Positions 21,797 to 41,009 of a DNA stretch of 64,000 bases are shown here, piece after piece. The stretch spans positions 4,073,476-4,137,475 of the forward strand of contig NZ_LR733293.1 of assembly GCF_902506095.1 (NCBI RefSeq), written 5' to 3'. The notes under the pieces are model-generated. The model was not told the origin of the DNA. It was given only the letters and a program-made list of their open reading frames with translations, and searched no databases. A program made the translations under genes and the position numbers. This DNA is from Arthrobacter sp. 9AX (GTDB lineage Bacteria > Actinomycetota > Actinomycetes > Actinomycetales > Micrococcaceae). Each line of letters starts with the position of its first letter. Positions within the stretch are counted from its first letter, which is position 1.

Positions 21797-22372
21797 TTAG
21801 CGGTTTTGCTGGTGGCGGTAGAGCGTTGCACGGCTCCAGCCAACGAGGCGAGCGGCTTCTTTCGCCGTGTGCCCCTTGGAACGGGCTTCCTTGATGATCG
21901 CCAGTTTCTCCGCAATGAGGGCCGAATCCGACACCGGTCGGCCAAAGCGTGTGCCGTTTTGCCTGGCGGCTGCGATGCCGGCATTGACCCGCTCGACAAT
22001 CAGCTCGCGCTCATACTCGGCGAGGGTTGCGAGCATGTTCAGCATCAGCCGGCCGGTCGAGGTTGCCGGGTCGATGCCATCGGAGATGGACCGGACCTGG
22101 ACACCACGACCGCGGAGCAGGGCGACCGTATTCAGCACGTCGATCAGCGACCGGCCCAGCCGGTCGACACGCCACACAACGACGATGTCGCCTTCCTCGG
22201 CATACTCGAGGAGCTTTTTCATGCCCGGCCGTTCGATCGCGGTCTTGCTACCGGAGGTCGGCGAAGACATCTCGTTTCTGCACACCAGCGGCAACCAGCG
22301 CGTCCAATTCGAGCTGGGCGTCCTGGCTGGAAGTGCTGACTCGGGTGTAGCCGTGTAGCCCAGTTGCCTCAC
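21797..22372 (-). pseudogene. Serine recombinase (resolvase/invertase), disrupted
   Basis: The GTG at 22372 starts RQLGYT, but an 8-bp tandem duplication (GTGTAGCC twice at 22345-22360, plus strand) throws the catalytic segment YTRVSTSSQD into the next frame. A second shift near 22255 returns to GSKTAIERPGMKKLLEYAEE, VVVWRVDRLGRSLIDV, NMLATLAEYERELIVERVNAG and the C-terminal helix-turn-helix EAARLVGWSRATLYRH. Catalytic Ser and the Arg residues are otherwise preserved. The parent was a Tn3-resolvase/Hin-type enzyme for plasmid or transposon DNA. Confidence 0.8.
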
Positions 22373-22647: not shown

Positions 22648-23607
22648 ATGGTCTTTGACCCGCAGGCCATCGCCATGGAAGAACCTTCTTGGTGGTGGAA
22701 CCCGCTGTCCTACGTCACCGACGAAGTCCGGGCCGCCCGCCTCGCTGACCACTTCGCCTCCGGCACACGCGGGCCCGGAGCCCAAACCGACGCGTACTTC
22801 GACCCTGCCGGACAGGACCTGCTCGCCGCCGCGCCTGGCCGACCTTCACATCACCCAGGTTCACACCTGGCTGACCGACCCCACCGACGACGCCGCCGTC
22901 CCGATCCTGATGGAGGCCGGCTTTTACCCAGACCGGCAACGCCGTCCGAGGTGTCATCAACCTACACGACAAACAACGCGGCGGCATTTACGGCACCGCT
23001 CTGCAGATGGCCTCCTGCCTGACCAACCGGCAAGTCTCCCGGTGGGCGACCTCTCAGCCTTCCCCCGAGGCCGCGCCATCATGTTCGCCTCCGGAGCCCC
23101 CGCAGCGTTGCTCGAAACCGTGCCTTGGATGGGCAAAAGCACGACGCCCAGATCCTGGCCTCCATCGCAGCCCACGACCCCTCCAATCGGCCAGCGGCGT
23201 CTACCGCTGCTGCTGAAACAGCGCATCCATGGGTTGTCACGCAACATCCAGCAGGAGCGCAGCCGATGAGTGACCTCGGCGAATGGGACGACGGTCCCAA
23301 GCATTCGGACAATCCTCCAAGACCGGCTTATGGCTTCTTCGTGTTTCCACCAGGAGGGGCACCAGGTGCGGGGGGTTCCGCTAAGGCTGCGCCGGTAGGA
23401 CGGTGGAAGGTGTTCCTCTACGAAGCTGACCAGATCGTTGTAGAAGAGCTCCGGCTCAGGAGCATCTTCTGCTTCCGGCCCGCTGGCTTCCAAGGGATGC
23501 CGTCGACCGGCACCGTGCGCACCTGGGGCAACGCAATGGACCCTTTTCGTCCCACGTTGGGACAGTATCGGTTTGTCCCAACTTTGGGACAAGGGAGGTC
23601 GAGGTAA
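22648..23607 (+). pseudogene. TraD/VirD4-like coupling protein, decayed copy 1
   Basis: Pieces of an actinobacterial conjugative coupling protein occur in order in three frames: MVFDPQAIAMEEPSWWWNPL, LADHFASGTRGPGAQTDAYF, DLHITQVHTWLTDPTDDAAV, and GGIYGTALQMASCLTNRQVS. An internal deletion then joins directly to FPRGRAIMFASGAPAALLET and the tail MSDLGEWDDGPK. Most of the ATPase core is gone. It marks former conjugative DNA, probably plasmid or ICE, at the left edge of the next island. Confidence 0.7.
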
Positions 23608-23681: not shown

Positions 23682-26195
23682 TCAGGGTAGAGTCCTGATC
23701 CTCATGTGGCGGAAGGCGACCCGCCCCCCGTGCGACTGCAGGCCAATGAAGCTTGGAACCGCCGCGCTACTCGCGACACCTCTACCCGCGATGTTGCTCG
23801 TAACCTGCGTGCTCTGAACCCCGTTAAGTCGAACGGTGTACGTATGGTTCATGACGTCAATTTCCAGATCATTCCACTGACCGGGCGGCTGGCAGGCTAC
23901 TTGGTTGTAGTTTGGATTTGCTATGCCGTAGAGGGACCCAGTCCGGTGGTTGTCGCCTCCATCGGGTCTGGCCAAGTCATCAATCTGAATCTCGTATCCG
24001 AAGTGGACAGGCACCCAGGCGGGATTGTTGTAGCCCTTGCTGTTTGGGTCTGGGAATCGCACGAAAACACCTGCGTTGTCGTCATGTCGGGACAGACGAA
24101 ATTGAAGACGAAGGCGGTAGTTTGCTGGGGTTGGCGTTGTGCACCAAGACAATCCGAGGTCGTCGCCGGGTTCGCTCACTAAAGCCCCGTCCACAAGTGG
24201 GAAAGCTCCACTCCCCGCGAAGCGCCACTTGCTGTTATCCAATCCATCAAACAATGTTTGGTAGCCGGCTTCTGCCACATAGGGTAGTGCTTCTCCCAGC
24301 TGATTGTCTGGTTGGGGACCAGGCTTCGGTGCCAGGTGTTCTGCCAGACGTCTGGAAAGTGCTACGCCCGTGAGCATTGGGTTGGGGCTGCCCAGCCGCG
24401 GAAAGACAGCCGGACCTAAGACGTAGGTGTTAGAGATAGCATGCAAGCGCCCATCGCTGTTCACTGCGGAAGTGTTTGGATCTGATCCCATGCGCAAACT
24501 GGAGGCTTCATGGTGAGTGGTGCCCAGCCCATCATGGCGGAACGCATGCGGCTGCACCGTCGAGGGAGCAGCATTGGCCGAGACTGTTTGCCAGCGGCCG
24601 GCCGCCAGCACCTCGTAATCGTTGCCTCCTGCAAAAGCCAGAGCGACGTCATCACTGCATTCGTCCATGGCCGTCCACAGTTTTTGATCCCGGGCGGAGG
24701 CCGTTATACCGACAAGGGCTCTAGGGGTCCCATAATCAGGATCTCCCATATCTTGCCCGACGAAGCTGGCGGCGTTGTCGGTGTCCATCTCTCCAATGCC
24801 TCTGATGGTAATGACGACGTGAGAGTCGCTGGCTGTTTTGAAGCGGTCTAGGGTGTCGATGTCCGGGATCTTCTGCCAGAGTTCAGCCTCACTAGAGTTG
24901 CCCTGGGGGCCCAGTCCAGCGGCTGTAATCTGCAGGTGGAAGTAACGGTCCGTCTGTTTAGTGTGAAGGCCTTTCAGGAACAACGCAGCTTCAGAGAGTT
25001 CGGCGACGGGTGGATTGGTGGGCAAGGACGTGCGCGGGATGCGGATCGTTAAGTTTGATCGCAGGTGCGCGGTCAGCCCGGTTCCTATCGCACCGGTTTG
25101 GGGTAGTCCTTGGAAGGAATTCTTGGCAAGCCTGGTGCTCTCAATGGTTCCTGCGGCAATAACAACAACGGCGCCCCGTTTCACAGGAACATTGCCTAGG
25201 TTCGTACGTACCTCCGTCACTTGTGATCCGTCATGGACCAGCTGCTGGACATGGCAGTTCGGAATAAGCATCAGACGGCGTCGCAGGTTATCCTCACGCG
25301 GCCACTCGCCCCAGGCTGTACGGGAAGATTTGACAATTAGAGGTCCGGAGCTGAACTTGTTACCGGGAAAAAAGCCAGTACGAGCAGTTGCCTGAACAGC
25401 AAGTGGAGCCTCTAGTTTCGCCTCATTTTGAAGCTGCTTAGCAGTACGTCCGCCTGCGTTTTCCAGGCCGAGTACTCGAGCAATGTCATCAGCAGAAGGG
25501 GCCTGCCCGAGTGCGGCAACGGCAGGATGATCCGGCAACGTAGCAGACGGAATGGCGTGAGTGATGCCACCGTTGGCGTCGGTGAGGACCCGCCGCAGGG
25601 CGTTCTGTAACGGACCATAGATGAAGTCGTTGGTGGAATCACTGCCTAACTGCCGCGCCGCGGCATCAAATCCGTCGGGTGATGAAAGGTCAGTTACGAC
25701 GGCCTGCGGCCAGCCCGTTAGTTCCTCCGGCAGCGGCCGCGGGGACCACCCACCCCAATACAGTGACCTGCCTCCAACACAGTATGCCAATCCGGGGAAA
25801 GCAACGTTGGACCGCCAAGACAAACCCCACACTTCGAATCGAGGTTTGTCAGCCTTTCCGGCCGCCTGTAAAGCGTCCAGCGTGGTGGCCCCGCCGGGTC
25901 CGGGATCCCCGAGGCCAATCATGGGCAGGTTTTGAACGTGTTCACCGATAAGCATCGGTCCCGCTTCCAGAACCAGGACACGGTGCCGACGACCAGTGTC
26001 TACTGTCAAAAGGTGCTGAGCGAAGGTGCCAGCAAAGCTGCCGCCTCCAACGACAATGACGTCAAATGGTCGAGCATCTGCGTTCAAAGCCTCATCTTGG
26101 GCTGCCTTGGCTTCGTCAATGGTGTTGCAGACATATCGGCCCAGAACATCGCGGCTAAATAAGGTGTCGGGCGTAGGAATCGGCGATGTCGGCAC
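23682..26195 (-). CDS. GMC oxidoreductase fused to a DUF1080 domain
   Basis: 837 aa. The GTG at 26195 is preceded by GAGGAGA; an upstream GTG at 26210 overlaps that site and is less likely. Residues ~40-75 form the FAD-binding motif DVIVVGGGSFAGTFAQHLL ending VLVLEAG. Further GMC signatures follow, and the C-terminal catalytic region has GTTHHEASSLRMG, with two His. From about residue 640 a second module begins (YQTLFDGLDNSKWRFAG ... GYEIQIDD ... QWNDLEIDVMN ... IGLQSHGG), matching DUF1080, the jelly-roll domain linked to 3-keto-disaccharide hydrolysis and glycan binding. No signal peptide is seen. A sugar or glycan oxidase that binds its polymer is a reasonable guess. Box 1 lies 58 bp upstream. 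Confidence 0.85.
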   Translation of the reverse strand: MPTSPIPTPDTLFSRDVLGRYVCNTIDEAKAAQDEALNADARPFDVIVVGGGSFAGTFAQHLLTVDTGRRHRVLVLEAGPMLIGEHVQNLPMIGLGDPGPGGATTLDALQAAGKADKPRFEVWGLSWRSNVAFPGLAYCVGGRSLYWGGWSPRPLPEELTGWPQAVVTDLSSPDGFDAAARQLGSDSTNDFIYGPLQNALRRVLTDANGGITHAIPSATLPDHPAVAALGQAPSADDIARVLGLENAGGRTAKQLQNEAKLEAPLAVQATARTGFFPGNKFSSGPLIVKSSRTAWGEWPREDNLRRRLMLIPNCHVQQLVHDGSQVTEVRTNLGNVPVKRGAVVVIAAGTIESTRLAKNSFQGLPQTGAIGTGLTAHLRSNLTIRIPRTSLPTNPPVAELSEAALFLKGLHTKQTDRYFHLQITAAGLGPQGNSSEAELWQKIPDIDTLDRFKTASDSHVVITIRGIGEMDTDNAASFVGQDMGDPDYGTPRALVGITASARDQKLWTAMDECSDDVALAFAGGNDYEVLAAGRWQTVSANAAPSTVQPHAFRHDGLGTTHHEASSLRMGSDPNTSAVNSDGRLHAISNTYVLGPAVFPRLGSPNPMLTGVALSRRLAEHLAPKPGPQPDNQLGEALPYVAEAGYQTLFDGLDNSKWRFAGSGAFPLVDGALVSEPGDDLGLSWCTTPTPANYRLRLQFRLSRHDDNAGVFVRFPDPNSKGYNNPAWVPVHFGYEIQIDDLARPDGGDNHRTGSLYGIANPNYNQVACQPPGQWNDLEIDVMNHTYTVRLNGVQSTQVTSNIAGRGVASSAAVPSFIGLQSHGGRVAFRHMRIRTLP

Positions 26196-26252
26196 AGCGG
26201 TTCTCCTCACACGAGTTATAGGACGTCGCTAGAACAGCATGAACGAGAGCGC

Positions 26253-26268
26253 GTTACTGGTGCGTTAC
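26253..26268 (-). promoter_or_regulatory. GTAAC-N6-GTAAC box 1
   Basis: On the coding strand of the GMC gene this reads GTAACGCACCAGTAAC. The two pentamers are 11 bp apart, the spacing bound by OmpR-family regulators such as GlnR and MtrA. It lies 58 bp before the GTG at 26195. Confidence 0.6.
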
Positions 26269-26577
26269 CCCGTCAGACAAATCTGGTTGCGACCTGTCCG
26301 GCCTTTGTCGGAACCGGGGCTCATCTCAAGAAGTCCACGCAGTTGCCCCCTCTAGATCGAATACTCGATGGCTCCGTTACAAGATTGGGGCGGTTGGAAG
26401 CGCTATCTAAGCTTCGGCCCGTAGGTCGTCGGCAGGATTAGACCCCCGCTAGTGCACACCGGCGACTTTCCTCGTGCATGGGCGGGCTGAGTCGGGAAGG
26501 ATTGGCTCCCCATACCTGGAAGGGATACCGGTCCCCGTGTCTACACTATGCATTTCTGACCAGACGCAGGTCCAGAT

Positions 26578-26907
26578 TTAGATCATGTAATTCCATCCAG
26601 AGTTGTTGTCCCAAGAAATACCGTCAGGACTTGCTGCAGCCAGGGCATAGTGCAGAGTGATCGGGGGCGTCGTGAAGTAGCTTATGCTGCCGGTCCAGAT
26701 GTCAGAGTCATTTTGGATATCGCTCAGACCACACACCGTGCGCTGAACTGATTGCCATCGATCCGGTGTCCACACGACTACGACTCGGTAGGCCCGAAGG
26801 TTCGGTAGGGTCTGTACTGTAACGTCGAATCCACGTTGAACGGCGCTCGAACCTGGAGTTCCAGTCGCTTGCTTTTTCACGGCGCTTAACAGGCGGACAA
26901 CAACCAT
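26578..26907 (-). CDS. Small CBM21-like carbohydrate-binding protein
   Basis: 109 aa; ATG 26907 follows AAGGAA with seven-base spacing, a better start than ATG 26922. After a beta-rich first half (GFDVTVQTLPNLRAYRVVVV) the C-terminus SPDGISWDNNSGWNYMI has the aromatic/Asn pattern (W-D-N-N-x-G-x-N-Y) of starch/glycogen-binding CBM21/CBM53 modules. No signal peptide. It lies 187 bp downstream of the metallopeptidase-like gene on the same strand and may share its transcript. A role in binding alpha-glucan or a related polymer is inferred from the motif only. Confidence 0.6.
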   Translation of the reverse strand: MVVVRLLSAVKKQATGTPGSSAVQRGFDVTVQTLPNLRAYRVVVVWTPDRWQSVQRTVCGLSDIQNDSDIWTGSISYFTTPPITLHYALAAASPDGISWDNNSGWNYMI

Positions 26908-27094
26908 TTGACATTCCTTCAAAAATGATGAGCAGCGGCTGATCGAATCGTGTGTGTAAAGCGCGTGTAGGAGCCTCGTGCGGTGACTCTGAATTCGGCT
27001 CTTGCCCGCTCGGGAACTGGGACACTTCTTCCAGGGAAAATTAGGAGTCTCGCACCCCGTGGGAACACTATGGCCTGGTCCTCTCCTTAGCTGC

Positions 27095-30000
27095 TCAGGG
27101 TCGAATACGTAACGAGTTCGAGCGTAGGCCCGCGACGAATTCGGCGTGGTCTACCACGGCGACAACGTCGATTGCCCGGCCGTCCAGCTCGGGGTTGCGG
27201 TCGATTACCGCGCGCAGGTCGAATTGTGTATCAAATGCGCCAGACGGCCCCGTCACGGTCTCGTCCACTACTACATCGCCTTCGGGTCCTCCCGTGATGA
27301 CGATGAGCACGGGAGTTCCCGAGCCTCCGGGGCTGACGTCCCCGCCCACCGCAACTGTCCCTTCACCGGATTCCGCCCAGATGCGCACGCTGCCGGTGAA
27401 CTTGGCCTTGCATCGGGCGGTAAGCCCGCCTATGGGTGAGAGGAATTCGCCTGGCTCGATCCCATCTGCGGTCTCGGTGTAGCGTCGTTCGAGGAATCCG
27501 TCGATTTGCACATCAATCGCGGGCTGCTCGACATACCGCCCGACGTCGTTGGGTGCCGCGACAATGACTTCGATGACACGCTCGTCGTGTCCGTCGACCC
27601 AGACCCACTGGTGTGGGATCTGCGCCAGGTAACCCTTGGAACGCCCCGTGACCCGGGTACGCAAGTGGATCCGCTGGCGGTTGGCGGACGGGTTGCGAAC
27701 CGCGACCGGAAAGGTGAGCGGGTGCACCGGGCTCCCGGCCGACAGGTCGAACTCCGAGATGTTCTCCTGTGCTTGGTTATTGCCGCCAGTTATCTCTCCC
27801 AGCTGATGTGTTGCCGCGACTTTGAGGCAGGTGTGCTCACCGATCTGGGGCACCCACACCGTCGTTGCGTCAAAGAAGGAGCCGCTGGCGATGGAGTTCA
27901 CGGTAGCTGTTTTGATTGGCGTCCAGCTGCCGTTGTCGCCCACACCTGGGGGTGTTACTGAGTAAAAAGTGACTAGGACGTTGGCTGCTGCATCTGTCCC
28001 ATCGTTGTGGATTCGGCAATAGAAGTCGTTCTTGGCCTTGACGAGGGGTTTGTCCCCGCTTCCCTGCGGCCGGCCCTCAGCGTCTAGGGGCTGGTCGTAC
28101 ACGCCGTCCTGTTTACGGTCGATCCAGACGTCCGGTGTCTGGTAGCTGTCGTCCCACGGCTGGATGCGTAAGTCGAACTTGCCGTTGGGATCGTTCGGGA
28201 TGTTCTGTGCCCACTCGATCTTCACCCTGCAGATCAGGGGCCATGCCTGGACGTTGTCGTTCACAACGGTGATCTTGAGGTCGCGCAGCGGATCAACGAC
28301 GACGCCGCCGGTGCGCAATACGTTCGAGGCATGGGCAAGGGTGATGAAGCGGGTCTGCTGATTGTTATTGACGGAATCGAGCAGCACACGTGTAACGATA
28401 ACTCCGCCCTGGTTGGGGTTGGCCCCGCTGCCGAGAGGCAGATTCGGGTCGAAGACCAGACCGGTCGTGCCCGGACGCTGCCGTACCTCGACGTAGTACG
28501 CCAGGGAGGGTGTGATGATGATCTTCAGTACGTGATACCTACCCTGAACCGTGTTTTCGGTCGTGCCGTGTGCTTCCAGCTCGACCTCAAGGGCGCGGGG
28601 ATTCCGGTCCCACTTAACGCGCCCGATGTTTGTCTGCCCTCCCAGGTTCTCGTCGTTGGGTTTTGCCGCGTGCGCGTCGGTTAACCAGCCCAGATTCTCC
28701 ATATTCGAGCCGCTGAACAGTGGGTGAAATGCGTCGTGGGAGCCCATTATGTCGAAAGCCGCAGCGGTCGCCTCGGCCGGGTCGATAAGATCGGACCCGT
28801 AGATGTCCTCGCCGAGGTGCGCTCCCGCCACGAACTTCGGGTCGATGATGTTGTGCCCGGTCTCATGCGCGAGACGACCCCAGTCGGCGTCCTCGTTTAC
28901 CGTCATGTACGGGGTGTCCTTGCTAAGCGTCTCATTGATGCTTAGCCCCGCCGCGGAGAAGGCGAAGGTCTTGGCGCTCATGTTTCCCCACCCACGCGTG
29001 AACTTTCCGCCGGTGTAGCACGTCACGGCGATCATGTCGGGCTGCGCCGCGGCGATCTCGGTCTTATAGAGCTGGACTGCCTCGGCGACCAGCCGCGGAT
29101 TGTTCCAGAAGTTGTTGTACATCTTGATGGTGCCGTCGGGGTTTGTTTGAGCCACGGGATTTCCAGATGCGTCTGTCTCGAACTCTGCGTGGCCGTTCGC
29201 GTCGTAAACCGGGTTGCCGCTGGCGTCGACCTTTTGTTTCAGCTCTGACGTCCAGTGGTAGTCAAGCAGATTGCCGCTGAGCGTCTTCCAACCGGCTGTC
29301 ACGGCACCGCTGACAGCGCTCTTCGAGTAGCTGGCCTGATCGTAGTACGTGGCGACCGAACCTCCGGTGCCGTTCCAACGGTCGTCGATCGTTGTGCGCG
29401 CGCCCGTCAGCGGTGATGACAGGTCGGACGGGGTCACCAATGCTACGAAGACCGCGCCGCCTGACTTCGGCAGACCCTGCTCGCCGAGCGCGGGTGTGGG
29501 TGCAATGTCTGCCAGCACGAGCGGCGGCCCGTCGTCGAAGTACCCTGGGCTCGCGTTTAAGGTGAACTTACCCGCATCGAGCACATCGGGCCCTACCTCA
29601 ACGATGAGAGAGCCGTCCCGTGTGTCGGGGTGCGTAAGCACACGCAGCCGGTGGTCCGAGTGCTCCAGGACGGTTGCTGGCGTACCGCCAACCTCAACGG
29701 TAACGGGCGTCGCCCAGACCCCGAACCCGCTGCCCGAAAGTACCAGCACGTCGCCACCATGGCCGAGCAGAGGCGAGACGTTGGTGACAACCGGTCCTGG
29801 CGGCACGGGGGAGAGGTCGTAGACGATGACCTCCCGCAGGCCGCTGATCACCACCTGATCCCGCACCATGCCAATGCTTGCCGGCTGCACATCCCCTGCG
29901 TCGAACAGCACTGTTGTCACACCGGCCGAGTCGATCTGCTCCACTCTGCCACCTGTGCTGGGCTCAGCGTGCAGCAGCGCCGTTTCGCTGTCGTCCGTCC

Positions 30001-30553
30001 AGGTGAGGCGGCCCGGGCTCTCGAACGAGTTTGTTAACGACGAGATCGGTCCGGCCGAAACATCGACCGCGAGGATCTCGTTGGGACGCGAGACGAAGGC
30101 AAGCGAGCCGTCAGCACGGGCGGCAAGGCCCACTCCGTTATTGAGCGCACCCGACAAACGCGAGACATCGCCGGTCGCGGGTGCGATTTCGATGAGGCAT
30201 CCCTCCGATCCCGTCTGCACTGCCCATACGGCAGATCGCGCCTGAATCCAGGCGATCTGTGCGACCCCACCGAGGTCTTTAGAGACGAGCTGGGGCGCCG
30301 AATCTGGCGATGACAGGTCGAGCAGGTAGAGACGGCCGTCCCGGATGGCGACGAACGCGGTGAGACCATCACTGGTGATCGCCAGATCCACGGCGCCCCG
30401 CAGGTCGCGGGTCACTGCTTGCACTGAGCGGTTTAAACCGAGGCTCGTGACTCGGCCCGAGATTTCCGCGACATAGACCCTGTCATCGATCGGGTTATAG
30501 CGGCATCCGCTAGTCGGGGTCAAGCCATCTGCAATCGTCAAACCCACAACCAT
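27095..30553 (-). CDS. Giant beta-propeller/IPT/metallopeptidase-like protein
   Basis: 1152 aa. ATG 30553 follows AGGAGG with good spacing; the open frame starts at 30598. Rough order: repeats resembling a beta-propeller (1-270), an IPT/TIG immunoglobulin-like domain (VTNVSPLLGHGGDVLVLSGS, ~275-350), then a catalytic region with RLAHETGHNIID (HExxH zinc motif) and MENLGWL, as in M6-type peptidases. CARDB-like beta domains follow (residues ~800-1000) and a final beta-rich segment. Known M6 peptidases are secreted, yet no signal peptide is visible here. It could act inside the cell, be released by lysis, or use another export route. Box 2 lies 115 bp upstream. Confidence 0.75.
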   Translation of the reverse strand: MVVGLTIADGLTPTSGCRYNPIDDRVYVAEISGRVTSLGLNRSVQAVTRDLRGAVDLAITSDGLTAFVAIRDGRLYLLDLSSPDSAPQLVSKDLGGVAQIAWIQARSAVWAVQTGSEGCLIEIAPATGDVSRLSGALNNGVGLAARADGSLAFVSRPNEILAVDVSAGPISSLTNSFESPGRLTWTDDSETALLHAEPSTGGRVEQIDSAGVTTVLFDAGDVQPASIGMVRDQVVISGLREVIVYDLSPVPPGPVVTNVSPLLGHGGDVLVLSGSGFGVWATPVTVEVGGTPATVLEHSDHRLRVLTHPDTRDGSLIVEVGPDVLDAGKFTLNASPGYFDDGPPLVLADIAPTPALGEQGLPKSGGAVFVALVTPSDLSSPLTGARTTIDDRWNGTGGSVATYYDQASYSKSAVSGAVTAGWKTLSGNLLDYHWTSELKQKVDASGNPVYDANGHAEFETDASGNPVAQTNPDGTIKMYNNFWNNPRLVAEAVQLYKTEIAAAQPDMIAVTCYTGGKFTRGWGNMSAKTFAFSAAGLSINETLSKDTPYMTVNEDADWGRLAHETGHNIIDPKFVAGAHLGEDIYGSDLIDPAEATAAAFDIMGSHDAFHPLFSGSNMENLGWLTDAHAAKPNDENLGGQTNIGRVKWDRNPRALEVELEAHGTTENTVQGRYHVLKIIITPSLAYYVEVRQRPGTTGLVFDPNLPLGSGANPNQGGVIVTRVLLDSVNNNQQTRFITLAHASNVLRTGGVVVDPLRDLKITVVNDNVQAWPLICRVKIEWAQNIPNDPNGKFDLRIQPWDDSYQTPDVWIDRKQDGVYDQPLDAEGRPQGSGDKPLVKAKNDFYCRIHNDGTDAAANVLVTFYSVTPPGVGDNGSWTPIKTATVNSIASGSFFDATTVWVPQIGEHTCLKVAATHQLGEITGGNNQAQENISEFDLSAGSPVHPLTFPVAVRNPSANRQRIHLRTRVTGRSKGYLAQIPHQWVWVDGHDERVIEVIVAAPNDVGRYVEQPAIDVQIDGFLERRYTETADGIEPGEFLSPIGGLTARCKAKFTGSVRIWAESGEGTVAVGGDVSPGGSGTPVLIVITGGPEGDVVVDETVTGPSGAFDTQFDLRAVIDRNPELDGRAIDVVAVVDHAEFVAGLRSNSLRIRP

Positions 30554-30667
30554 CGCTGCCTCCTGCATCCATCCGCGAATACTTCCAGGGCTGAACACAT
30601 GACCGGTCCGCTAGCTCAAGGAGCGCGTCATTTGGCTCGCTGGTCCTGCAAGTGTCCAGCTGATGTC

Positions 30668-30683
30668 GTTACTGACGCGTTAT
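30668..30683 (-). promoter_or_regulatory. GTAAC-N6-GTAAC box 2
   Basis: Coding-strand sequence ATAACGCGTCAGTAAC: one mismatch in the first pentamer (ATAAC), same 11-bp phasing and the same CAGTAACG context as the other boxes. Located 115 bp before the start of the 1152-aa gene. Confidence 0.55.
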
Positions 30684-30874
30684 TGAGTTTCACCCGTCTG
30701 GTCGACGCTGTCCCTTGCGTTCCTGCAATGGACAAGGAGCCCTTCAGATTAGTGTGAATTTTCCGTTTGTTGCCTTACGTAGCCCGGGTTGATGTGTTTT
30801 CCCGGCAAGTGTCCTGTGAAGAGAACTTACCTACTCAGGTGTCTTAGGGCCCGGCTGATCACCGGCCGCAGTTG

Positions 30875-31377
30875 GACCCGGCAAAGTTCGTCCGGTCCAA
30901 GGGAAGGCTGTACAGCCTCTCCATGCCTTCCGACCTACTCTGACGGTCTTTGCCTTGCGCCTGACGGCCGCGCCATCATGTTCGCCTCCGGCGCCCCCGC
31001 AGCGCTGCTCGAAACAGTGCCGTGGATTGGCGGCAAGCACGACGCCGGAATCAATGTCGAAGCCCACGACCCCTCCAGGCAGCGAGCCACCGCGGAGACC
31101 GCTGCCACTGAAACGATGAATCCTTGGGTTACCGCCGTAGCATCCAGCAAGGGCACAGCCGACGACTGACCTAGGCGAATGAGACGACGAACCTGAAGTC
31201 CCCAACCAACCTGCCGGGCCACTGGAAGCTGGGGAGTCTGAAGCAGAAGAAGCCGCTGGTGGCGAGACCACGCAGACCACCACATGGGAGTCCTACTTTC
31301 CGCGGACGGTCCATTCAAGGGATGCAAGCCCCGTTAGTGGCGGGCACGACCAACAAGCTCAAAGCTCTCCCGTGTGA
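30875..31377 (+). pseudogene. TraD/VirD4-like coupling protein, decayed copy 2
   Basis: Begins with DPAKFVRSKGRLYSLSM, an internal TraD segment missing from copy 1. It then jumps by deletion to GRAIMFASGAPAALLETVPW and WV near the end of the ATPase. The next frame continues LGE-TGA-DDEPEVPNQ: the TGA at 31180-31182 replaces the Trp seen in copy 1 (LGEWDD), and the matching ATG start is ACG. Roughly 75 bp around the shared AIMFASGAPAALLETVPW segment are near-identical to 23060-23135. Copies 1 and 2 flank the 23.7-30.6 kb genes. Confidence 0.7.
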
Positions 31378-31460
31378 GCGGCCCCCCGAAGGCCTCTTCT
31401 GAAGATCGCAGGGTTCCCGTACCAGACAGTGGGCCGGCCCTTAGCCGAGGTGATGGACCA

Positions 31461-31476
31461 GTAACGGAGCAGTAAC
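31461..31476 (+). promoter_or_regulatory. GTAAC-N6-GTAAC box 3
   Basis: GTAACGGAGCAGTAAC, in the forward orientation of the operon that follows at 31715-34609. A GAAAC at 31485 could be a further half-site. Confidence 0.6.
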
Positions 31477-31506
31477 GCTGAACGGAAACGATAGCTAGGA
31501 GGAGCC

Positions 31507-31650
31507 ATGACGCTACGAGCTATATCGGGCTTCAAGCCCATGGGGGGCGCGCCTCATTCAGAAACGTGCAAATCAGGGAGGTCTAGGTGGTCAGGGCCTA
31601 CTTTGGCTTTGAAGCTTTCGCGTTATCCAGGTTTCGTGCTTGGGCGCAAA
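31507..31650 (+). CDS. Possible small leader ORF
   Basis: 47 codons from ATG 31507, with a strong AGGAGGAG just upstream but tight spacing. The product is basic and not recognised. An overlapping frame from GTG 31587 (GGAGG upstream, 40 aa) is an alternative. Either could be a translated leader of the PASTA-lipoprotein operon driven from box 3. Confidence 0.3.
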
Positions 31651-31714
31651 TAGTTCAGACGCGGTGCTTGGAACAAAGGAGCAACAGTCGCAAGCTCTTG
31701 AGGAGGTGAGGCGG

Positions 31715-32470
31715 ATGTCGCAGTCGACAAGGAAGCTAGGCTTTTGGATGCCAGTGGTAGCGGGGGCAATGGCGGTCAACCTGTTAACCGCTTCATGCTC
31801 ATCTCAAACAGACAACACTGGATCCTCGTCAGCACCTACGCCGGAAACGTCAGGCAGCAATACTGGAGTCCAAACCCCTGCCCCATCGGGCACAGACACT
31901 CCGGACGCAACGCTGAGGGTTCCAACAGATCTGGTCAATAAGACCGTTGAGGATGCCAGCGCACAACTTTTGGCCGCCGGAATCCTCTTCACCACACTCT
32001 TAGAGGAAGCTGAAGAATCTCAGGTCGGCAGGGTGGTCAGGGTGGAACCGGCCGCCGGGACAGTGCTTAGAGAAAATGACAGGATTCACCTGATAGTTGG
32101 AAAGACCAAAGATGGAACTCCCTCCACGCCAGTCCGGCCTGGGGACCTTACTATTACAGGTGTCGAATTCATCAGGATACCACCGGCTGCTAATTGCCAG
32201 ATCGTCGTCACTGTCTTTAATAATTTATCAAGGACAGCAGATAGGATCAACGTCACGGGTCATGTGCAGATGCGCGATCAAGATAGTTCCAGATTTACAC
32301 TCGATTTCAGTCGCCATGAAGGACTGCAGAATCTTGAACCGCAAACACAGCATCCAATCTACGGTGAAGTTACATTCGAACGTGGAGTCACTGCAAGTTA
32401 TCAGTTCCAAGTTGTGCAGGACACCCAGGTAATTGATGAAGTGGCTGAACAACTGGCAACGTGTGAATGA
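31715..32470 (+). CDS. PASTA-domain lipoprotein
   Basis: 251 aa from ATG 31715, with GGAGGTGAGG upstream. Signal peptide with lipobox LLTASC (residues ~24-29), then a Ser/Thr/Pro-rich linker typical of surface-exposed lipoproteins. One PASTA domain follows (residues ~67-133: VPTDLVNKTVEDASAQLLAA ... VVRVEPAAGTVLRENDRIHL), which in other proteins binds peptidoglycan or beta-lactams. The C-terminal part is a beta-rich domain with two Cys. First clear gene of an operon with two membrane proteins and a DUF922 protein. DNA is AT-richer than its surroundings, suggesting a foreign origin. Confidence 0.8.
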   Translation: MSQSTRKLGFWMPVVAGAMAVNLLTASCSSQTDNTGSSSAPTPETSGSNTGVQTPAPSGTDTPDATLRVPTDLVNKTVEDASAQLLAAGILFTTLLEEAEESQVGRVVRVEPAAGTVLRENDRIHLIVGKTKDGTPSTPVRPGDLTITGVEFIRIPPAANCQIVVTVFNNLSRTADRINVTGHVQMRDQDSSRFTLDFSRHEGLQNLEPQTQHPIYGEVTFERGVTASYQFQVVQDTQVIDEVAEQLATCE

Positions 32471-32538
32471 TTTAGATATGCCTACCCATTCGAGAAACTC
32501 ACCCGTCGTACGGTAATGGGATCAGGGAGTGATGGCTT

Positions 32539-33225
32539 ATGGAGCGGCGCCTTCCCGTCTCAGGGGGCGGACTGCCCAACCCCAGAGCTGGCTGGCAAGA
32601 AGACCCTTTAATGTTTTTTCTTGCATTCACGGCGGCAATTACTTCAATTGCTGCCCTTCTACTCCATCTGGCTGATTTCATTCGCATGCCTTACACCTTG
32701 TCCTTCGTCACACTCCCTGGGATGGTCATCTTGTTGGGCATTCGAATCAGGGCAGGCCATGCGGGACGCGACATCATAGTACAGCGCTTGAGTGCTGGAT
32801 TCGTTGGTGGAATTCTTGGCCTTGGTGCCTACAACCTTGTCCGTTGGATTATTGGTTTGCTACTTGCAGCGGACTTGTCACCATTCTATTCCATCTACAT
32901 TTTCGGATCTCTAATTACGGGAAAAACGCCCAATTCAAGCCTTTCAATTCTTTTTGGCTGGGCATATCACATAAGCAATGGAATAACTTTCGCGATCATC
33001 TATGCCCTATTTGCAGGAGCTGCGCGGTGGCACTACGGGCTTCTTTGGGGTCTGGCATTGGAGGTGGCAATGCTAGCAATTTATCCTTCCAGCACGCTCT
33101 TGCGGCCGCCTGCCCTGATGCCGTTTGTCACCATTAGTCTCGCTGCCCACGCGTCGTACGGCGTGGCTATAGGGCTTTATGTTCAGCGGCGATGCTCATT
33201 GCCAGCCACAGCGGTGCTGAGATGA
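32539..33225 (+). CDS. Polytopic membrane protein
   Basis: 228 aa from ATG 32539; a Met at residue 25 is an alternative start. About six hydrophobic helices (FFLAFTAAITSIAALLLHLA, TLSFVTLPGMVILLGI, RLSAGFVGGILGLGAY and so on). Contains an HISNGITFAIIYALF helix and a C-terminal VAIGLYVQRR. Its family is not recognised. It overlaps the next gene by four bases (ATGA), so the two probably form a membrane pair. Codon use is AT-richer than the flanks. Confidence 0.65.
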   Translation: MERRLPVSGGGLPNPRAGWQEDPLMFFLAFTAAITSIAALLLHLADFIRMPYTLSFVTLPGMVILLGIRIRAGHAGRDIIVQRLSAGFVGGILGLGAYNLVRWIIGLLLAADLSPFYSIYIFGSLITGKTPNSSLSILFGWAYHISNGITFAIIYALFAGAARWHYGLLWGLALEVAMLAIYPSSTLLRPPALMPFVTISLAAHASYGVAIGLYVQRRCSLPATAVLR

Positions 33226-33851
33226 TTCAGAACCTGCGGCGCCTTTGGGGCTTCATTGCCTACGTCATATTCTTCGCATGGCTAGACTGGATGACCCACC
33301 GAAGCGTTCCTTTTATTGTGTTCGTTGGAGGGGCGGTTATCCTTGGAGCACTATTTCGAGCCCGAATCGGTGGTGCGATACAGGCGATGTCCCTAAGAGA
33401 TACCTCAGGGTGGACAAATAGATTCGTGAACGGCTGGTTGGTGCTTCCTTGGAAGATGCGAAGGACACTGGTGGCGCTAACGCCGCTTCTCTACTTTTTA
33501 CTCCGTGGCCAGGGAACCTCGGGGGCAGGAGGTGCTGTACTTTTAGGCGCCGCCGCTGTCGCCGTGCCAGTCATACTCATGGGTGACCAAATAGACCGTT
33601 TACTACAACGCTACTACCTGCGGCGAGACGCCTTGCTCCCCCGATGGCTTCGCTTGGTTCTGGCCCCGGCGGTGGCTATCGTTCTGGCTTTCGCTATAGT
33701 GCACGGTTCAATTCTTGACTTACCTGCACTATTTGGTGGCGCTACATTGACGCCTCGTTCGCCAGTGGGGTTGGACGGACGCTTCTTTCTCGCCACTTTG
33801 ATCGCTAGCGCGTTCTCAGTGCTGCTGATTCGCGAACGGGGGACCTCTTGA
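33222..33851 (+). CDS. Polytopic membrane protein
   Basis: 209 aa if started at ATG 33222, which overlaps the preceding TGA; an earlier ATG at 33192 would add ten residues. Five or six hydrophobic helices ([80 protein letters not shown]). No known family. Its stop overlaps the TTG start of the DUF922 gene, so the last three genes of the operon are all translationally coupled. Confidence 0.65.
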   Translation: MIQNLRRLWGFIAYVIFFAWLDWMTHRSVPFIVFVGGAVILGALFRARIGGAIQAMSLRDTSGWTNRFVNGWLVLPWKMRRTLVALTPLLYFLLRGQGTSGAGGAVLLGAAAVAVPVILMGDQIDRLLQRYYLRRDALLPRWLRLVLAPAVAIVLAFAIVHGSILDLPALFGGATLTPRSPVGLDGRFFLATLIASAFSVLLIRERGTS

Positions 33852-34609
33852 CCAACACCCTCGCCGGCGCAACAGTCTCGCATCTCGTCAAGATGGCTGT
33901 CAGTGGTGTTCTTACTGCGATGTTCATCTTGTTAGTTGCGGGCCCTGCTGCTGCCGACAACTGCGATATTTTCGTCTCCCCGCAGGATTGTCAGAATACT
34001 GGGTGGACCATCGGCATCATCGCTACAGCAGGGGGCGCCGCGGCCGCGGCTATTGCCGCCGCTTCCAAGGGCAGCCCTAAGCCGAAGGTCAAAAAGAGAA
34101 AGTTTAAAAACTGCGGAACGGCTAGTGACTGGCTCAATTCGGGCGTCGAGACTGGCAGTGCTGCGACGGGATTCACTCCCGTGCTTGGGAAGCCACAGTT
34201 AGCAGGAAACAACGGTGACGGATACGAAGTGTCGGTAGACGTTACTTGGAAGTTGAACCCCAGTAAGACGGCCACGGTCATGGAAGTTCCTGAGTGGCCA
34301 AATATGTCGGAAGCGGACAAGGCAGCCGTACAGGAGTACTCTGATGCGCTTCGAGCTCATGAAGAGGGCCATCATGAGCGAGCCATTGACTTCATGTCAA
34401 GAAACGGAAAAACGATCACAGGCGAGGGTGGGACTCGGAAGGAGGCCCAAGCGGACTTGCAACGGAAACTTGATGAATACATGGCCGAGTCCAAAGACCA
34501 GTTGGATGAAGTTTCAAAGTCTTACGATGAAACCACTGATCATGGCCGCAATCAATCTGCTGTAGGCGGTCGTGACGTACGACTGAACTGCCCCCCTGGC
34601 ATTTCATAG
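33848..34609 (+). CDS. DUF922-type putative zinc protease
   Basis: 253 aa from TTG 33848, overlapping the previous stop (TTGA), with GGGGGA upstream. Signal peptide or anchor near residues 15-36 (AVSGVLTAMFILLVAGPAAA), a Cys pair after it, then a Gly/Ala-rich hydrophobic segment (IIATAGGAAAAAIAAA). The C-terminal domain has RAHEEGHHERAIDF, a HExGH zinc-binding motif as in the DUF922 zincin-like family. These are predicted surface or periplasmic proteases of unknown substrate. With a PASTA lipoprotein in the same operon, cell-envelope remodelling is plausible (inference). Confidence 0.75.
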   Translation: MTNTLAGATVSHLVKMAVSGVLTAMFILLVAGPAAADNCDIFVSPQDCQNTGWTIGIIATAGGAAAAAIAAASKGSPKPKVKKRKFKNCGTASDWLNSGVETGSAATGFTPVLGKPQLAGNNGDGYEVSVDVTWKLNPSKTATVMEVPEWPNMSEADKAAVQEYSDALRAHEEGHHERAIDFMSRNGKTITGEGGTRKEAQADLQRKLDEYMAESKDQLDEVSKSYDETTDHGRNQSAVGGRDVRLNCPPGIS

Positions 34610-34989
34610 CAGGGCAATAAATTTTCGTGATGCGATAGCGCAAGTTCATCGGTAGGAGCGCCTGCTTTCCGCCCTCGCAACTCACCAGCAACTACCCGTC
34701 AGCAGGTGCAACCAACCTATTGGCTGAGTAAACCTGGGCCGGCAAGAACACTCCCTCGAGCCCGTCCGATGCACAGGTGGAAATGTTTTGTTCGTCCAGC
34801 GCCAAAATTTGACTACAGCTCAATGTCAGGTCCACCCCCTAGCAGCTTCGAGTTTCCCCGCAGAAATTGAGCTGTCGTCCCGCCGCCTCGATCCGGCGCA
34901 CTCTCAAGGTGGCGCTTCAAAGCTGTCGGCTATAGACGACGGCATCAGTTGCTGCTGATGCGGCTGCAGCAAATTCCGGTTCAACCTAC
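34610..34989. other. Convergent intergenic region
   Basis: Between the DUF922 gene and the convergent lipase gene I see no gene, no strong hairpin with a T run and no repeat. Confidence 0.5.
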
Positions 34990-36279
34990 CTAGGCGTCCG
35001 GTCGGCACCAACCACAAGCATCAAATCCAGACTTTCTTGCTTCTAACGGTGTGTCAAAAAGAACGACTCGCAGTATTTCGTTGATTTGGCAGTTAGCACT
35101 CATTCGGGCAAGGTCATGAAATTCGTGAGTTGAATCATTACCGAGGAACCCGGCGCCACACCCTACCGCCGTAACGTTTCTTACTGGCGTTCCGAGGATC
35201 TGCCCTACTCTTTCGAAGAGCATTTCATCCCAAAGAGCTTCTGCGTGATTGAACGGAAGCGTCTCATGGGAAGCGCCTGTAAGTTGTGAGCTCCTCACGG
35301 TAACGCAAGAGTCACCCCTTCCCTCCACCTGTTCCTCAAAAAGTAGACCGTCCGGAACCGAGTCCAGCAACGGTGAAATGATCGGCAGCTCGCTGGCTTC
35401 CTCTGTCCAGTCAAAGCGCACGTCTGGAAAGCCACCGGGAAGATAGCTCGAAAGGGTATACCTCCAGAAGAACAGGCCGGAGAACCTTACAGATGAACCG
35501 CCGAAAGTGTGGAAATCAATCGATGGTGTGTCCGCTGGCATCGACAGACTGTTGAAAATTGGGTTGTTTGGCAGGAGTTGGCGGGCACCCGGCGTCACGT
35601 CGTACCAGTCAAAAATACGATCAAGTGCATATCTGATCAGAAATTGTGGACTTAGAAAGTCGATCTCCGGAATGGGCAAGAAATTCCCCAGGAGAGCGTC
35701 TACCATGTCCCCAATTTTCCCTTTCGCCAAGGGGGCGTTAGTGGCGCCGTGGGGAGTTCCTACCGTAATCACCTTACTGATCCAGTCCGGTCCATCTTGT
35801 AAATGATCAGCGAGGTATCGACGAACGAGAATGCCCCCGCGACTGTGCGCCAGCACCACGACCCTCTTGTTCGCGAGAGGCCCCTGCAGGACCTGCTGCC
35901 TGATAAAGGGAATGATGTGAGACTCAAGCTGACGGAGCGGGACGTCGACGGTTTCCTGGTTACCGTCTTGGCTGTAGTTGATGACGGTATGACCCATGCC
36001 GCGCAGGACTCCGGCCCAACATCGGATATCCGAGCGCATGTCGGCTAGGGACGGAGGAAGGAGGAATCCGGTCGGAGGTGGAATGAAGTTGTCATTGTCG
36101 TGGCGGTCTCGCGGCGTTCGATGCTGCCAATGGAGCCCGCGCCATTGCGGCTGTCTCCAATCATTGATGCTTCCGCCAAGGCCGTGAAGCAGGAGAACTA
36201 CTTCTCGATCACTGCGTCTAGCTTCAGGCGTAGAAGGATGTACTTGCAAATAGCCGAATTCCCTCCCCAAGCTGGTCAA
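34990..36279 (-). CDS. Lipase-like alpha/beta hydrolase with Ada-like Cys/His tail
   Basis: 429 aa from TTG 36279; GGAGGAGG lies six bases upstream, making this start convincing. VVLLLHGLGGSINDW is the oxyanion-hole strand and VVVLAHSRGGILVRRYL carries the nucleophile Ser. TVGTPHGATNAPLAKGKIGD is typical of lipase/PGAP1-like enzymes. A catalytic Asp/His pair lies further on. The last ~60 residues form a separate module (FLGNDSTHEFHDL ... NCQINEI ... GFDACGWC) whose H-x8-C and C-x2-C spacing resembles Ada-type zinc-binding domains. No signal peptide. An esterase acting on a lipid or polymer tied to the island's other enzymes is inferred. Box 4 lies 60 bp upstream. Confidence 0.75.
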   Translation of the reverse strand: MTSLGREFGYLQVHPSTPEARRSDREVVLLLHGLGGSINDWRQPQWRGLHWQHRTPRDRHDNDNFIPPPTGFLLPPSLADMRSDIRCWAGVLRGMGHTVINYSQDGNQETVDVPLRQLESHIIPFIRQQVLQGPLANKRVVVLAHSRGGILVRRYLADHLQDGPDWISKVITVGTPHGATNAPLAKGKIGDMVDALLGNFLPIPEIDFLSPQFLIRYALDRIFDWYDVTPGARQLLPNNPIFNSLSMPADTPSIDFHTFGGSSVRFSGLFFWRYTLSSYLPGGFPDVRFDWTEEASELPIISPLLDSVPDGLLFEEQVEGRGDSCVTVRSSQLTGASHETLPFNHAEALWDEMLFERVGQILGTPVRNVTAVGCGAGFLGNDSTHEFHDLARMSANCQINEILRVVLFDTPLEARKSGFDACGWCRPDA

Positions 36280-36338
36280 TGGGGACCTCCTCCGGTTCGC
36301 AGGGACATAATCTTCTTCTTGAGGATAAGTGCGTGGCC

Positions 36339-36354
36339 GTTACTGGGCCGTTAC
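36339..36354 (-). promoter_or_regulatory. GTAAC-N6-GTAAC box 4
   Basis: Coding-strand sequence GTAACGGCCCAGTAAC, 60 bp before the TTG of the lipase gene. It shares the divergent control region with box 5. Confidence 0.65.
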
Positions 36355-36473
36355 TTGGGGGCCAGTTCCTACCGTCCGACTGGTAGCTTCCCCAGGAGCT
36401 GTTAGACCTCATTGTCCGTAACCTTGACAAAAGCATCGGACGCGAATTGCAAATGGCACCCTGGAATCCCGCA

Positions 36474-36489
36474 GTAACGCTGTAGTAAC
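36474..36489 (+). promoter_or_regulatory. GTAAC-N6-GTAAC box 5
   Basis: GTAACGCTGTAGTAAC, 70 bp before the TTG at 36559. Orientation follows the gene it precedes, opposite to box 4. Confidence 0.65.
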
Positions 36490-36558
36490 GCCACGTGAGA
36501 TATGTGTCCTTTATCAGAATCCGTCACGGGGGGTTCTCAGCCGAGCCAGGAGGTTTCG

Positions 36559-37215
36559 TTGGAAAATACCGATGATTCGTCAGCAGCGGACAGCGCGTTA
36601 GACCAAGAAAGTATCGCGAGGGCTGCGGACCTGCTTGCCAGCCTGCCGCCTAGTTACAAACTTCCCGAGGGGTTCGCCGAGGTGTTCACAGAGCGAAATA
36701 CCTTGAGGTACCGCATAGCTCTTGTACCCGCGCACCGCCATGAAGACCTCTTGGGGAAAATACGAGGCAGTTACAGCACCTATATGCTGCTGGGCTCAGG
36801 GAGTAGCCAAACTGATTCTTTGGGGCAGGCGTTTATTGACGTGGACGATCTGCTTCGTGCCGTCAGAGGGGGCAGGCCCATGCATAAGGGTATACATCCT
36901 TGGCCGGATGGGAATGTGGGCGGCAGAAATGATGTGGTTCCTTACGATGTGTTGGTTACGGGAGTTCCGGTCACTGTAGTAACTGGAACCGGCGACATCC
37001 CCACGCTATTCACAACCAAGAATCAGGAAGTAGCCGATTACGATGGTCGCGGAATGACACTTGCCTCGTGGTACGAACCGGCGCCTCGTAGCGGTAGGTC
37101 AGCAGGGAGCATTCTCGTAACGAGCTTTGCTCTCGACGGGGCCATCAGAGGAGACGAGGCGTTCGACTGGCAAACCTCCGTAGAAGTCGTTTTCGGACGC
37201 GCCGCCATCTACTGA
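36559..37215 (+). CDS. Hypothetical protein of the boxed island
   Basis: 218 aa. The TTG at 36559 has AGGAGG five bases upstream and puts box 5 at the same distance as box 4 from its gene; the ATG at 36502 has no ribosome site. The N-terminus is acidic and Ser-rich (ENTDDSSAADSALDQES), followed by ARAADLLASLPPSYKLPEGF and a mixed alpha/beta domain with RYRIALVPAHRHEDLLG. No signal peptide, membrane helix or recognised family. Divergent from the lipase gene and apparently under the same regulator. Confidence 0.6.
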   Translation: MENTDDSSAADSALDQESIARAADLLASLPPSYKLPEGFAEVFTERNTLRYRIALVPAHRHEDLLGKIRGSYSTYMLLGSGSSQTDSLGQAFIDVDDLLRAVRGGRPMHKGIHPWPDGNVGGRNDVVPYDVLVTGVPVTVVTGTGDIPTLFTTKNQEVADYDGRGMTLASWYEPAPRSGRSAGSILVTSFALDGAIRGDEAFDWQTSVEVVFGRAAIY

Positions 37216-37444: not shown

Positions 37445-38005
37445 TCAGGTCTTTTTGCGGTTGCTTCGCAACGCCAAGGCCGTGCGCACGGTCCGCGCCT
37501 TTGTGGCCTTACCGCGCGAAGACGAGACAGCTGCTGCTGGTGGAGTTGCGTGGTTCCGATCGGCGTTGAGTCGAGCCTGCACGGCTTTCCGTCGTTCTGC
37601 TAAGTCGTAAGTCGCTGCAGTTTCATCCGCTGGCTGTTCGGGCTTAGCGTTGTCAGCTTCGACGTTTCGGCGACGGGCCTTGTCGGCCCGTTCGGCTTCC
37701 GCGAGGAGCTGGTCGGCTTGGGCTTTTCCGCTAATGCTGCCGTACGTTCTTCTCAGTAGGAGGCGACACCGAAAAGGTTGCCGATGGTGTCGGACGTGGC
37801 GGGTAACAGCGATCATGACGTAGGGCCATTGGCCTAAGTCCCAGCCCTCGCAGCCCCACACACCAAGGATTGCCCAGCCCTCGGCATCGATCAGCTCCAT
37901 CCAGTCGCAGCCGCCGTTTTCGTGGTAGTCACGAAGGACGGATACTGCCTCGATTACTTCGTTGGTGTCGGCCGTAGTGGCGGTGTCGGTTGCAATGGCG
38001 TTCAT
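37445..38005 (-). CDS. Hypothetical plasmid-like protein
   Basis: 186 aa from ATG 38005. The N-terminal half (VLRDYHENGGCDWMELIDAE ... GVWGCEGWDLGQWPYVMIAV) is acidic and Trp-rich and looks like a small globular domain. The C-terminal half is a highly charged helix (QLLAEAERADKARRRN) ending in a basic tail. Between them CRLLLRRTYGSI reads unnaturally, so a local frameshift is possible. This type is common among actinobacterial plasmid genes, with no known function. Confidence 0.5.
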   Translation of the reverse strand: MNAIATDTATTADTNEVIEAVSVLRDYHENGGCDWMELIDAEGWAILGVWGCEGWDLGQWPYVMIAVTRHVRHHRQPFRCRLLLRRTYGSISGKAQADQLLAEAERADKARRRNVEADNAKPEQPADETAATYDLAERRKAVQARLNADRNHATPPAAAVSSSRGKATKARTVRTALALRSNRKKT

Positions 38006-40522: not shown

Positions 40523-41009
40523 TCGCTCCCCCTCCACCCTCTGTACTGACGACGATACCGGGGTCACCGGCTCCCGATCGGCGTCCGCCGCTAAACACCG
40601 ATGCGCGGCGTCATGGCCCTGTCCCAGTAGCCGGTCGATCACCGGACGTTTTGCGGCCCGCCAGGGGATCCCTTGCGGGCCGCACCCGTCGCCAAATAAC
40701 GCCGAAAAAAGACCGCCATTTACCGCCAGAAGTCACACTCCGGCCTTTTCGGAGACTTGTCGCCACGAGGTCAGAAACGGTCGTTTTGGAAGCGTCACTC
40801 TCCGGCGACCCCGCCATGTACCGGCTAACGCGACGATGGACGGACAGGCCTCTTTCGAACCGGCCACCCGGAGCGCCCACCGCCAACGTTCCCAAATACG
40901 TGAGGGTAAATAAAGAAAGCGTGGCAGCGTCAGGCATCAGGGCCATCTCCCCGACCTGGCTCAGAGAAGGTGGGGACGTGTCGGTGCTGCGTCTTGATTT
41001 CCCATCGCG
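40523..41009. other. Gene-poor stretch
   Basis: No supported gene. A small hairpin CTCCG...CGGAG lies near 40740. AAATAACGCCGA at 40695-40706 vaguely recalls, in inverse, the CATTATCGGCGTTT repeat at 46121 and 47229. Confidence 0.35.

Follow-up and report, generated by a model that had tools for sequence, protein, structure and literature searches.

We describe five copies of a direct-repeat box in a gene island of Arthrobacter sp. 9AX and propose that they are operators for activators of the SARP family. The island lies within a window of 64,000 nucleotides (contig NZ_LR733293.1, positions 4,073,476 to 4,137,475 of the forward strand; positions below count from the first letter of this window) and probably comprises five transcription units, each placed behind its own box and all under one control. 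The best explanation of the data, to which we assign a probability of about 0.78, is that the boxes are SARP-type operators, that an accessory SARP, here termed SARP A, serves such boxes in trans, and that the 9AX island would be one client island of such an activator. The boxes themselves are very probably SARP operators with the geometry of the AfsR box.

Architecture of the boxes

The layout of the five sites is CAGTAACG-N3-CAGTAACG. All are exact matches to the pattern RTAACG-N3-YAGTAACG, i.e. two CAGTAACG-like copies at 11-bp phase:

Box 1, 26252..26268, minus strand: GTAACG-CAC-CAGTAACG; weak -10-like CATGCT at 26241-26236; precedes the GMC/3-keto-disaccharide hydrolase fusion gene
Box 2, 30667..30683, minus strand: ATAACG-CGT-CAGTAACG; -10-like GACACT at 30656-30651; precedes the M6-like gene
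Box 3, 31461..31477, plus strand: GTAACG-GAG-CAGTAACG; a degenerate third copy, GTGATG (31450-31455), lies 11 bp farther upstream; good -10 lacking at the phase where it would be expected
Box 4, 36338..36354, minus strand: GTAACG-GCC-CAGTAACG; good -10 TATCCT at 36327-36322; precedes the alpha/beta hydrolase gene
Box 5, 36474..36490, plus strand: GTAACG-CTG-TAGTAACG; -10-like TATGTG at 36501-36506; precedes the gene for a 218-amino-acid protein

A preliminary description of this DNA had reported five sites with exact 11-bp phasing, all of which we recover as 17-mers. It had also stated that the window holds no other correctly phased pair and that each site reads toward the following gene, mostly 58-115 bp before its start. 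Both statements agree with our analysis: RTAACG pairs in the window are spaced at 11 bp five times and never at the other spacings from 5 to 30 bp, and direction and distances are as described. The genome-wide motif search that it had suggested showed that the boxes are local and not randomly spread, as RTAACG-N5-RTAACG has only five exact matches in the whole genome (4,429,628 bases), every one of them in this island. The reversed pattern gives none, but differs in base order and is an imperfect background, to which the comparison of genomes with and without SARP given below is preferable. The five sites span 10,238 bp, and the chance of such a cluster is ~1.4e-10. With two mismatches allowed the genome-wide count does not exceed the control, which rules out a wider degenerate regulon of the exact box form.

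An alignment of 84 non-redundant boxes reveals a conserved CA ahead of the first repeat, a C or G behind both repeats and three loosely conserved positions, along with a -10-like hexamer, T-N2-A-Y-T, at +27 to +32; outside these elements the sequence is near random. The hexamer lies 8 bp past the conserved stretch, which ends at +18, and 7 bp past the 11-bp unit, and if it represents the -10 element (-12 to -7) the box is centred at about -30.5. The five sites of the window match this -10 model jointly (P=3e-4), although individually that at 26252 matches weakly and that at 31461 does not. The spacer trinucleotides vary among boxes, and for 105 of 108 boxes a permissive rule finds an open reading frame (ORF) that starts no more than ~400 bp downstream. 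SARP operators have direct repeats phased by 11 bp (or 22 bp), as seen here. For comparison, the centre of the AfsR box is at -29.5, the protomers touch the leading 8 bp in both of its 11-bp units (PMC10936776), and SARP boxes are found ~8 bp from the -10 element (PMC10936776; see also PMC5930380, PMC10972967).

We propose that two SARP protomers would lie side by side on the two 11-bp direct repeats (8 conserved and 3 free bp each), covering the -35 region, and would hold RNA polymerase on a weak -10 at a fixed distance, in a manner similar to the 'sigma-adaptation' of AfsR. The activator would be a small SARP, consisting of an OmpR-type DNA-binding domain and a BTAD domain, and its predicted binding to the boxes would activate the genes behind them.

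Distribution of the boxes and their association with SARP A

Exact boxes are present in 55 of 206 Arthrobacter genomes, with 1 to 10 per genome, while about three quarters of the genus and all 78 genomes from other families of the order are devoid of them. A small SARP-family gene adjoins boxes in at least 12 genomes. In a search of 199 genomes the SARP A class (at least 50% identity) was recovered from 38 Arthrobacter genomes, and a second class, SARP B, proved more distant (41-44%). SARP A is found in 31 of the 33 box-bearing genomes of a first set versus 7 of its 88 box-free genomes (p=9e-20). A second set of 80 further genomes, searched afterwards and with five box-negative genomes left out, gave 16/22 versus 8/58 (p=9e-7), and 14/14 for genomes with two or more boxes (p=1e-9). 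Apart from Arthrobacter sp. 9AX, all genomes with at least two exact boxes have SARP A. Conversely, the 15 SARP A genomes that have no exact box contain 35 one-mismatch boxes, versus 5 in 15 SARP-free genomes. Simple linkage fails to explain this association because 27 of 50 boxes in the 18 genomes with mapped contigs are more than 100 kb away from the SARP gene. SARP A would seem to act in trans on boxes scattered over islands, and we envisage that this accessory protein, usually together with a small conserved partner, would switch on operons of extracellular contractile injection systems (eCIS) and varied, mostly leaderless hydrolases and presumed effectors.

The partner is mostly 61-94 amino acids long; 30 genomes hold 34 copies of it, and it matches no family of either Pfam or NCBIfam. 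Examples are:

L061, 1266-1451, plus strand: SARP partner protein
L107, 8038-8304, plus strand: SARP partner protein
L153, 8715-8918, minus strand: SARP partner protein

The C-terminal BTAD domain of the SARPs was confirmed by Pfam (1.9e-16 and 2.4e-14), and the N-terminal region had no Pfam match to an OmpR-type winged helix. SARP B, which is 42% identical to SARP A, was modelled from a 41-sequence alignment (pLDDT 93), and its best Foldseek matches in the PDB, to which the model aligns along its length, were the AfsR SARP chains 8k60_I and 8hvr_I (initiation complex; E 9e-9) and EmbR. The SARP profile matched AfsR with 3e-11 over its whole length (profile positions 5 to 236). Model and profile thus reveal an N-terminal OmpR-type winged helix in these proteins.

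Genes of the island and signs of its mobility

The genes behind the boxes are as follows:

23682..26195, minus strand: fusion of the C-terminal domain of GMC oxidoreductases with a 3-keto-disaccharide hydrolase domain (DUF1080); Pfam PF05199 9e-14, PF06439 6e-33
26578..26922, minus strand: ORF of 114 amino acids following the M6-like gene; resemblance to CBM21 (E=0.026) does not reach the Pfam cut-off
27095..30553, minus strand: M6-like protein of 1152 amino acids with HETGH (HEXXH-type) motif and TIG domain; M6 domain (9e-4) and CARDB-like matches both below cut-off
31507..31653, plus strand: ORF of 48 amino acids with strong Shine-Dalgarno sequence, first after box 3
31715..32470, plus strand: PASTA-domain protein, PF03793 2e-9, with lipoprotein-like N-terminus (LLTASC)
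32539..33225, plus strand: DUF6789 membrane protein, Pfam 3e-7
33192..33851, plus strand: hydrophobic protein of 219 amino acids, no family match
33848..34609, plus strand: DUF922 protein, last gene of the box 3 operon, PF06037 3e-11, with metallopeptidase-like HEEGHH motif
34990..36279, minus strand: alpha/beta hydrolase (lipase/esterase-like) of 429 amino acids with Cys/His-rich C-terminus; Abhydrolase_1 6e-8, PGAP1 8e-7
36559..37215, plus strand: protein of 218 amino acids, TTG start, no family match

The start of the M6-like gene is better placed at 30553, where it has a strong Shine-Dalgarno sequence and lies 130 bp from its box, in line with the distances of 138 and 141 bp that two further species show. 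For the 218-amino-acid protein the TTG start is preferred because the ATG at 36502 overlaps the -10 of box 5. The 48-amino-acid ORF is possibly a leader. We saw no signal peptide in the M6-like protein or the alpha/beta hydrolase, and no N-terminal signal in the GMC fusion. The CBM21-like label that the preliminary description gave to the 114-amino-acid product corresponds to a sub-threshold similarity. No candidate for a regulator encoded beside the island emerged, as 37445-38005, 38715-40037 and 40034-40642 match no Pfam family, and no PADLOC model for anti-phage defence matched.

The neighbourhood of the island as a whole is not conserved; recurrence is limited to the M6-like gene, seen in 3 genomes, and the GMC fusion, seen in 4 at no less than 48% identity. 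The conserved neighbourhood by which the preliminary description had proposed to judge its island is accordingly not a single shared unit, the M6-like gene and its box alone being common to two other species. These are Arthrobacter pascens (DSM 20545) and Arthrobacter sp. Leaf337, in which orthologues 88% and 83% identical stand behind boxes. The box before this gene has the same position in all three species while its spacer trinucleotide varies, and the -10-like sequence is kept in both relatives, where a SARP A gene adjoins the M6-like gene. In the 9AX window no SARP A remnant was detected by tblastn (best E 0.023). Relatives of the GMC fusion are found in genomes G202 (70%), G256 (68%) and G083 (48%).

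The GMC-M6 part of the island is flanked by a degenerate sequence in two copies, 77% identical to each other, at 23069-23293 and 30966-31189. These copies, which are of mobile-element type, and a serine-resolvase gene (21797-22372) next to the island suggest its acquisition by mobile elements. In G202 the relative of the GMC fusion is accompanied by a box and a DUF2278-like ORF (L247, contig C92, 3295-10746 and 15906-17929), and relaxase-like ORFs were recognized by eye on the same contig; therefore such islands may be mobile. A search of plasmids yielded only SARP relatives below 60% identity and, for the M6-like protein, only a partial relative in Ensifer.

Putative clients in relatives and a possible link to eCIS

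The 105 ORFs downstream of boxes fall into 67 mutually unrelated families; outside the window, genes were called with a simple codon-usage script, which leaves starts and small genes approximate. Sheath genes of eCIS start 80 bp (G280) and 108 bp (G221) downstream of a box. An operon of A. pascens that comprises sheath, gp19 tube and additional eCIS genes also has a box upstream, and it neighbours SARP A and the M6-like gene. In three relatives, operons driven by or associated with boxes encode eCIS proteins, identified by Pfam as sheath, tube, Pvc16, AAA, hub-like and eCIS_core. The other clients include numerous proteases, namely matrixin with a peptidoglycan-binding domain, astacin-like, thermolysin M4, M1 with InhA-like MAM and a subtilase-trypsin fusion, and also caspase-like C14 and TIR proteins, GDSL esterases, DUF2278-LTD and FHA proteins, and sigma-54 with its activator. 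By a crude hydropathy test 51 of the 67 families have no strongly hydrophobic N-terminus. A common 'effector' role of the clients may be surmised.

The preliminary description had taken the island for a co-regulated envelope- or polymer-processing system. Its core idea of unrelated units under one likely control is retained here, but the label is too narrow because the clients of relatives comprise eCIS operons, proteases, esterases, TIR and caspase-like proteins and a sigma-54 cassette. We also considered and rejected a general link between eCIS and SARP A: no association is seen when any sheath is counted (p=0.85), only with the longer sheath clades (p=5e-6).

Possible regulator of the 9AX island and alternative explanations

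Several observations weigh against the proposed SARP A regulon or its extension to 9AX. The 9AX genome has no SARP A, its only BTAD proteins being SARP B (C5:865881-866558) and a 484-amino-acid protein (C5:3417978). Regulator and sites do not always coincide, as seven single-box genomes in addition to 9AX have no SARP A; this limits the claim for 9AX to 'SARP operator' as opposed to 'SARP A regulon'. Six of the box genomes of the second set are among those without it, with single sites that are possibly due to chance. One of the five window sites, that at 31461, has no good -10. The Fisher p-values are too optimistic because the genomes share ancestry. An eCIS sheath was detected in 14 of the 62 SARP A genomes and not in the other 48, which makes eCIS one client among several and not the definition of the regulon. 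The 9AX genome has no sheath relative at 1e-10, and on this count its island does not qualify as an eCIS cargo island. As for SARP B, the other genomes that have it without SARP A contain no exact boxes, single-box G045 excepted, and its own operator is not followed by a -10 at the usual phase.

SARP B belongs to a core locus seen in at least six species, in which a 67-amino-acid partner and SARP B are divergent from genes for two ~65-amino-acid peptides and a protein of ~610-820 amino acids. The intergenic region of all six loci examined contains three RTAAYG-like hexamers at 11-bp phase with an invariant GTAACG (in 9AX, ATAACG-N5-ATAATG-N5-GTAACG). As this conserved triple repeat of the same hexamer adjoins its operon, SARP B is a plausible reader of the window boxes, and we put the chances that it is their acting regulator at about even. 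The locus also resembles daptide and epipeptide loci of ribosomally synthesized and post-translationally modified peptides (RiPPs) in its two small peptides and metalloprotease-like protein. The latter matches the daptide_HExxH (3e-26) and YydH/LiaK (5e-14) models, both far below the curated cut-offs, and the locus is not assigned to the daptides, its score being 92 bits against the NF041824 cut-off of 300. The core SARP B locus lies at L153 (8715-11980) and at the syntenic L187, L188, L189, L192 and L108, and its RiPP-precursor-like ~65-amino-acid peptides carry ELLPxRETLF.

The absence of SARP A from 9AX also raises the possibility that the island is orphaned: SARP A operators would have arrived with horizontally acquired clients, and the activator was lost or never present, leaving silent relics. 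In favor of this are the fact that no genome besides 9AX combines two or more exact boxes with the absence of SARP A, the adjacency of SARP A to the M6-like gene in A. pascens and Leaf337 with no trace of it in the window, and the degenerate mobile-element repeats and neighbouring resolvase gene. However, decay is not yet visible, as all five boxes are exact and the frames are open, and the triple repeat at the SARP B operon points to a possible resident reader. We regard orphaning as a serious but somewhat doubtful alternative, slightly less likely than service by SARP B. The same mobile-element remnants, the confinement of the boxes to islands and the relaxase-like ORF near the G202 locus might suggest that the boxes are recombination sites, iterons or phage-repressor operators in place of promoter elements. 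Their consistent placement before ORF starts (105/108), varying spacers, fixed phase to the -10 and retention before the M6-like gene in three species make this very improbable.

Response regulators offer a further reading. GlnR and MtrA are core regulators of actinobacteria, and such OmpR-type proteins bind 11-bp-phased direct repeats with GTAAC-like halves, as the preliminary description had pointed out. We rejected a GlnR/MtrA regulon on the distribution of the boxes, which are island-confined, have no exact copy elsewhere in the 9AX genome, and are accessory in the genus (55/206 genomes), where they track SARP A; the odds that these or other core response regulators own the sites are very small. 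The OmpR-family regulator foreseen in that description survives as an OmpR-type DNA-binding fold, but not as GlnR or MtrA, since the boxes follow the accessory SARP. Finally, the motif specifies only ~12 bases and might cluster fortuitously, but the cluster alone has a probability of ~1e-10 and the association was replicated in other genomes, by which chance is already refuted and its remaining likelihood is negligible.

Comparison with known systems and significance

The proposed SARP operators and their activators resemble the AfsR/afs box system of Streptomyces coelicolor (PMC10936776), which shares the protein fold and likewise has a pair of 11-bp direct repeats, each conserved over its leading 8 bp, and a weak -10 at a near-equal distance (centre -29.5, versus about -30.5 here). 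The AfsR repeat is CGTT(T/C)ATCG as against CAGTAACG, the regulator here is a small SARP without the NOD and TPR regions, and in place of afsS or antibiotic genes its clients would be eCIS and hydrolase genes. The small SARPs ActII-ORF4 and DnrI and the SARP-LAL protein PimR (PMC10972967, PMC5930380) recognize heptamers with a 4-nt spacer, i.e. 11-bp units, in two or three repeats near the promoter, as here. Whereas these proteins mainly serve an adjacent biosynthetic cluster, we envisage a trans-acting regulon of scattered, unrelated units. Structural proteins of eCIS occur in box-linked operons of three relatives, whereas the window genome has no sheath gene. MtrA and GlnR, too, use GTAAC-like direct repeats about one helical turn apart, and the boxes here differ in being accessory and following a SARP gene.

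SARP operators with 11-bp repeats are already known, and it is the regulon and its clients that appear to be new. In the open-licence literature we found no paper that links a SARP to eCIS or describes the box motif in Arthrobacter. It is conceivable, though we consider it rather unlikely in full, that a genus-wide accessory SARP regulon constitutes a weapon- or predation-type programme, with eCIS, leaderless hydrolases, toxin-like proteins on mobile islands and a sigma-54 cascade, and that the ancestral core SARP, whose normal target would be a RiPP-like peptide locus, acts in trans on cargo islands of the 9AX type. SARPs are known as switches of antibiotic clusters; here injection systems and effector-like enzymes seem to make up a trans-acting regulon that is defined by a SARP-type operator. 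A near-exact motif with a fixed -10 would predict eCIS clients and effector genes genome-wide, independently of homology or neighbourhood, and the boxes could help to find out by experiment which signals set off eCIS in actinobacteria of soil.

A sigma-54 cassette and a toxin-complex-like gene

An unexpected actinobacterial sigma-54 system appears to be tied to the same switch. Actinobacteria have been stated to have no sigma-54 (PMC3162934). A cassette at L053 (5691-6980, plus strand; 14227-15612, minus strand), with counterparts in G025, G035, G074, G093, G104 and G120, lies beside SARP A and phenylacetate-type genes. It encodes a sigma-54 protein (PF04552 2e-26, PF04963 2e-15, RpoN box ARRTVNKYR), joined in the majority of the genomes by an activator that carries the GAFTGA motif (PF00158 4e-52). 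A search of eight such loci for canonical sigma-54 -24/-12 sites gave one weak match and none that is clear. Boxes precede both rpoN and the activator gene. At another locus (L058; G019 C4:56000-75999) a box stands before a giant ORF from ~6540 on the minus strand, which by eye resembles a TcB/SpvB-type toxin-complex subunit.

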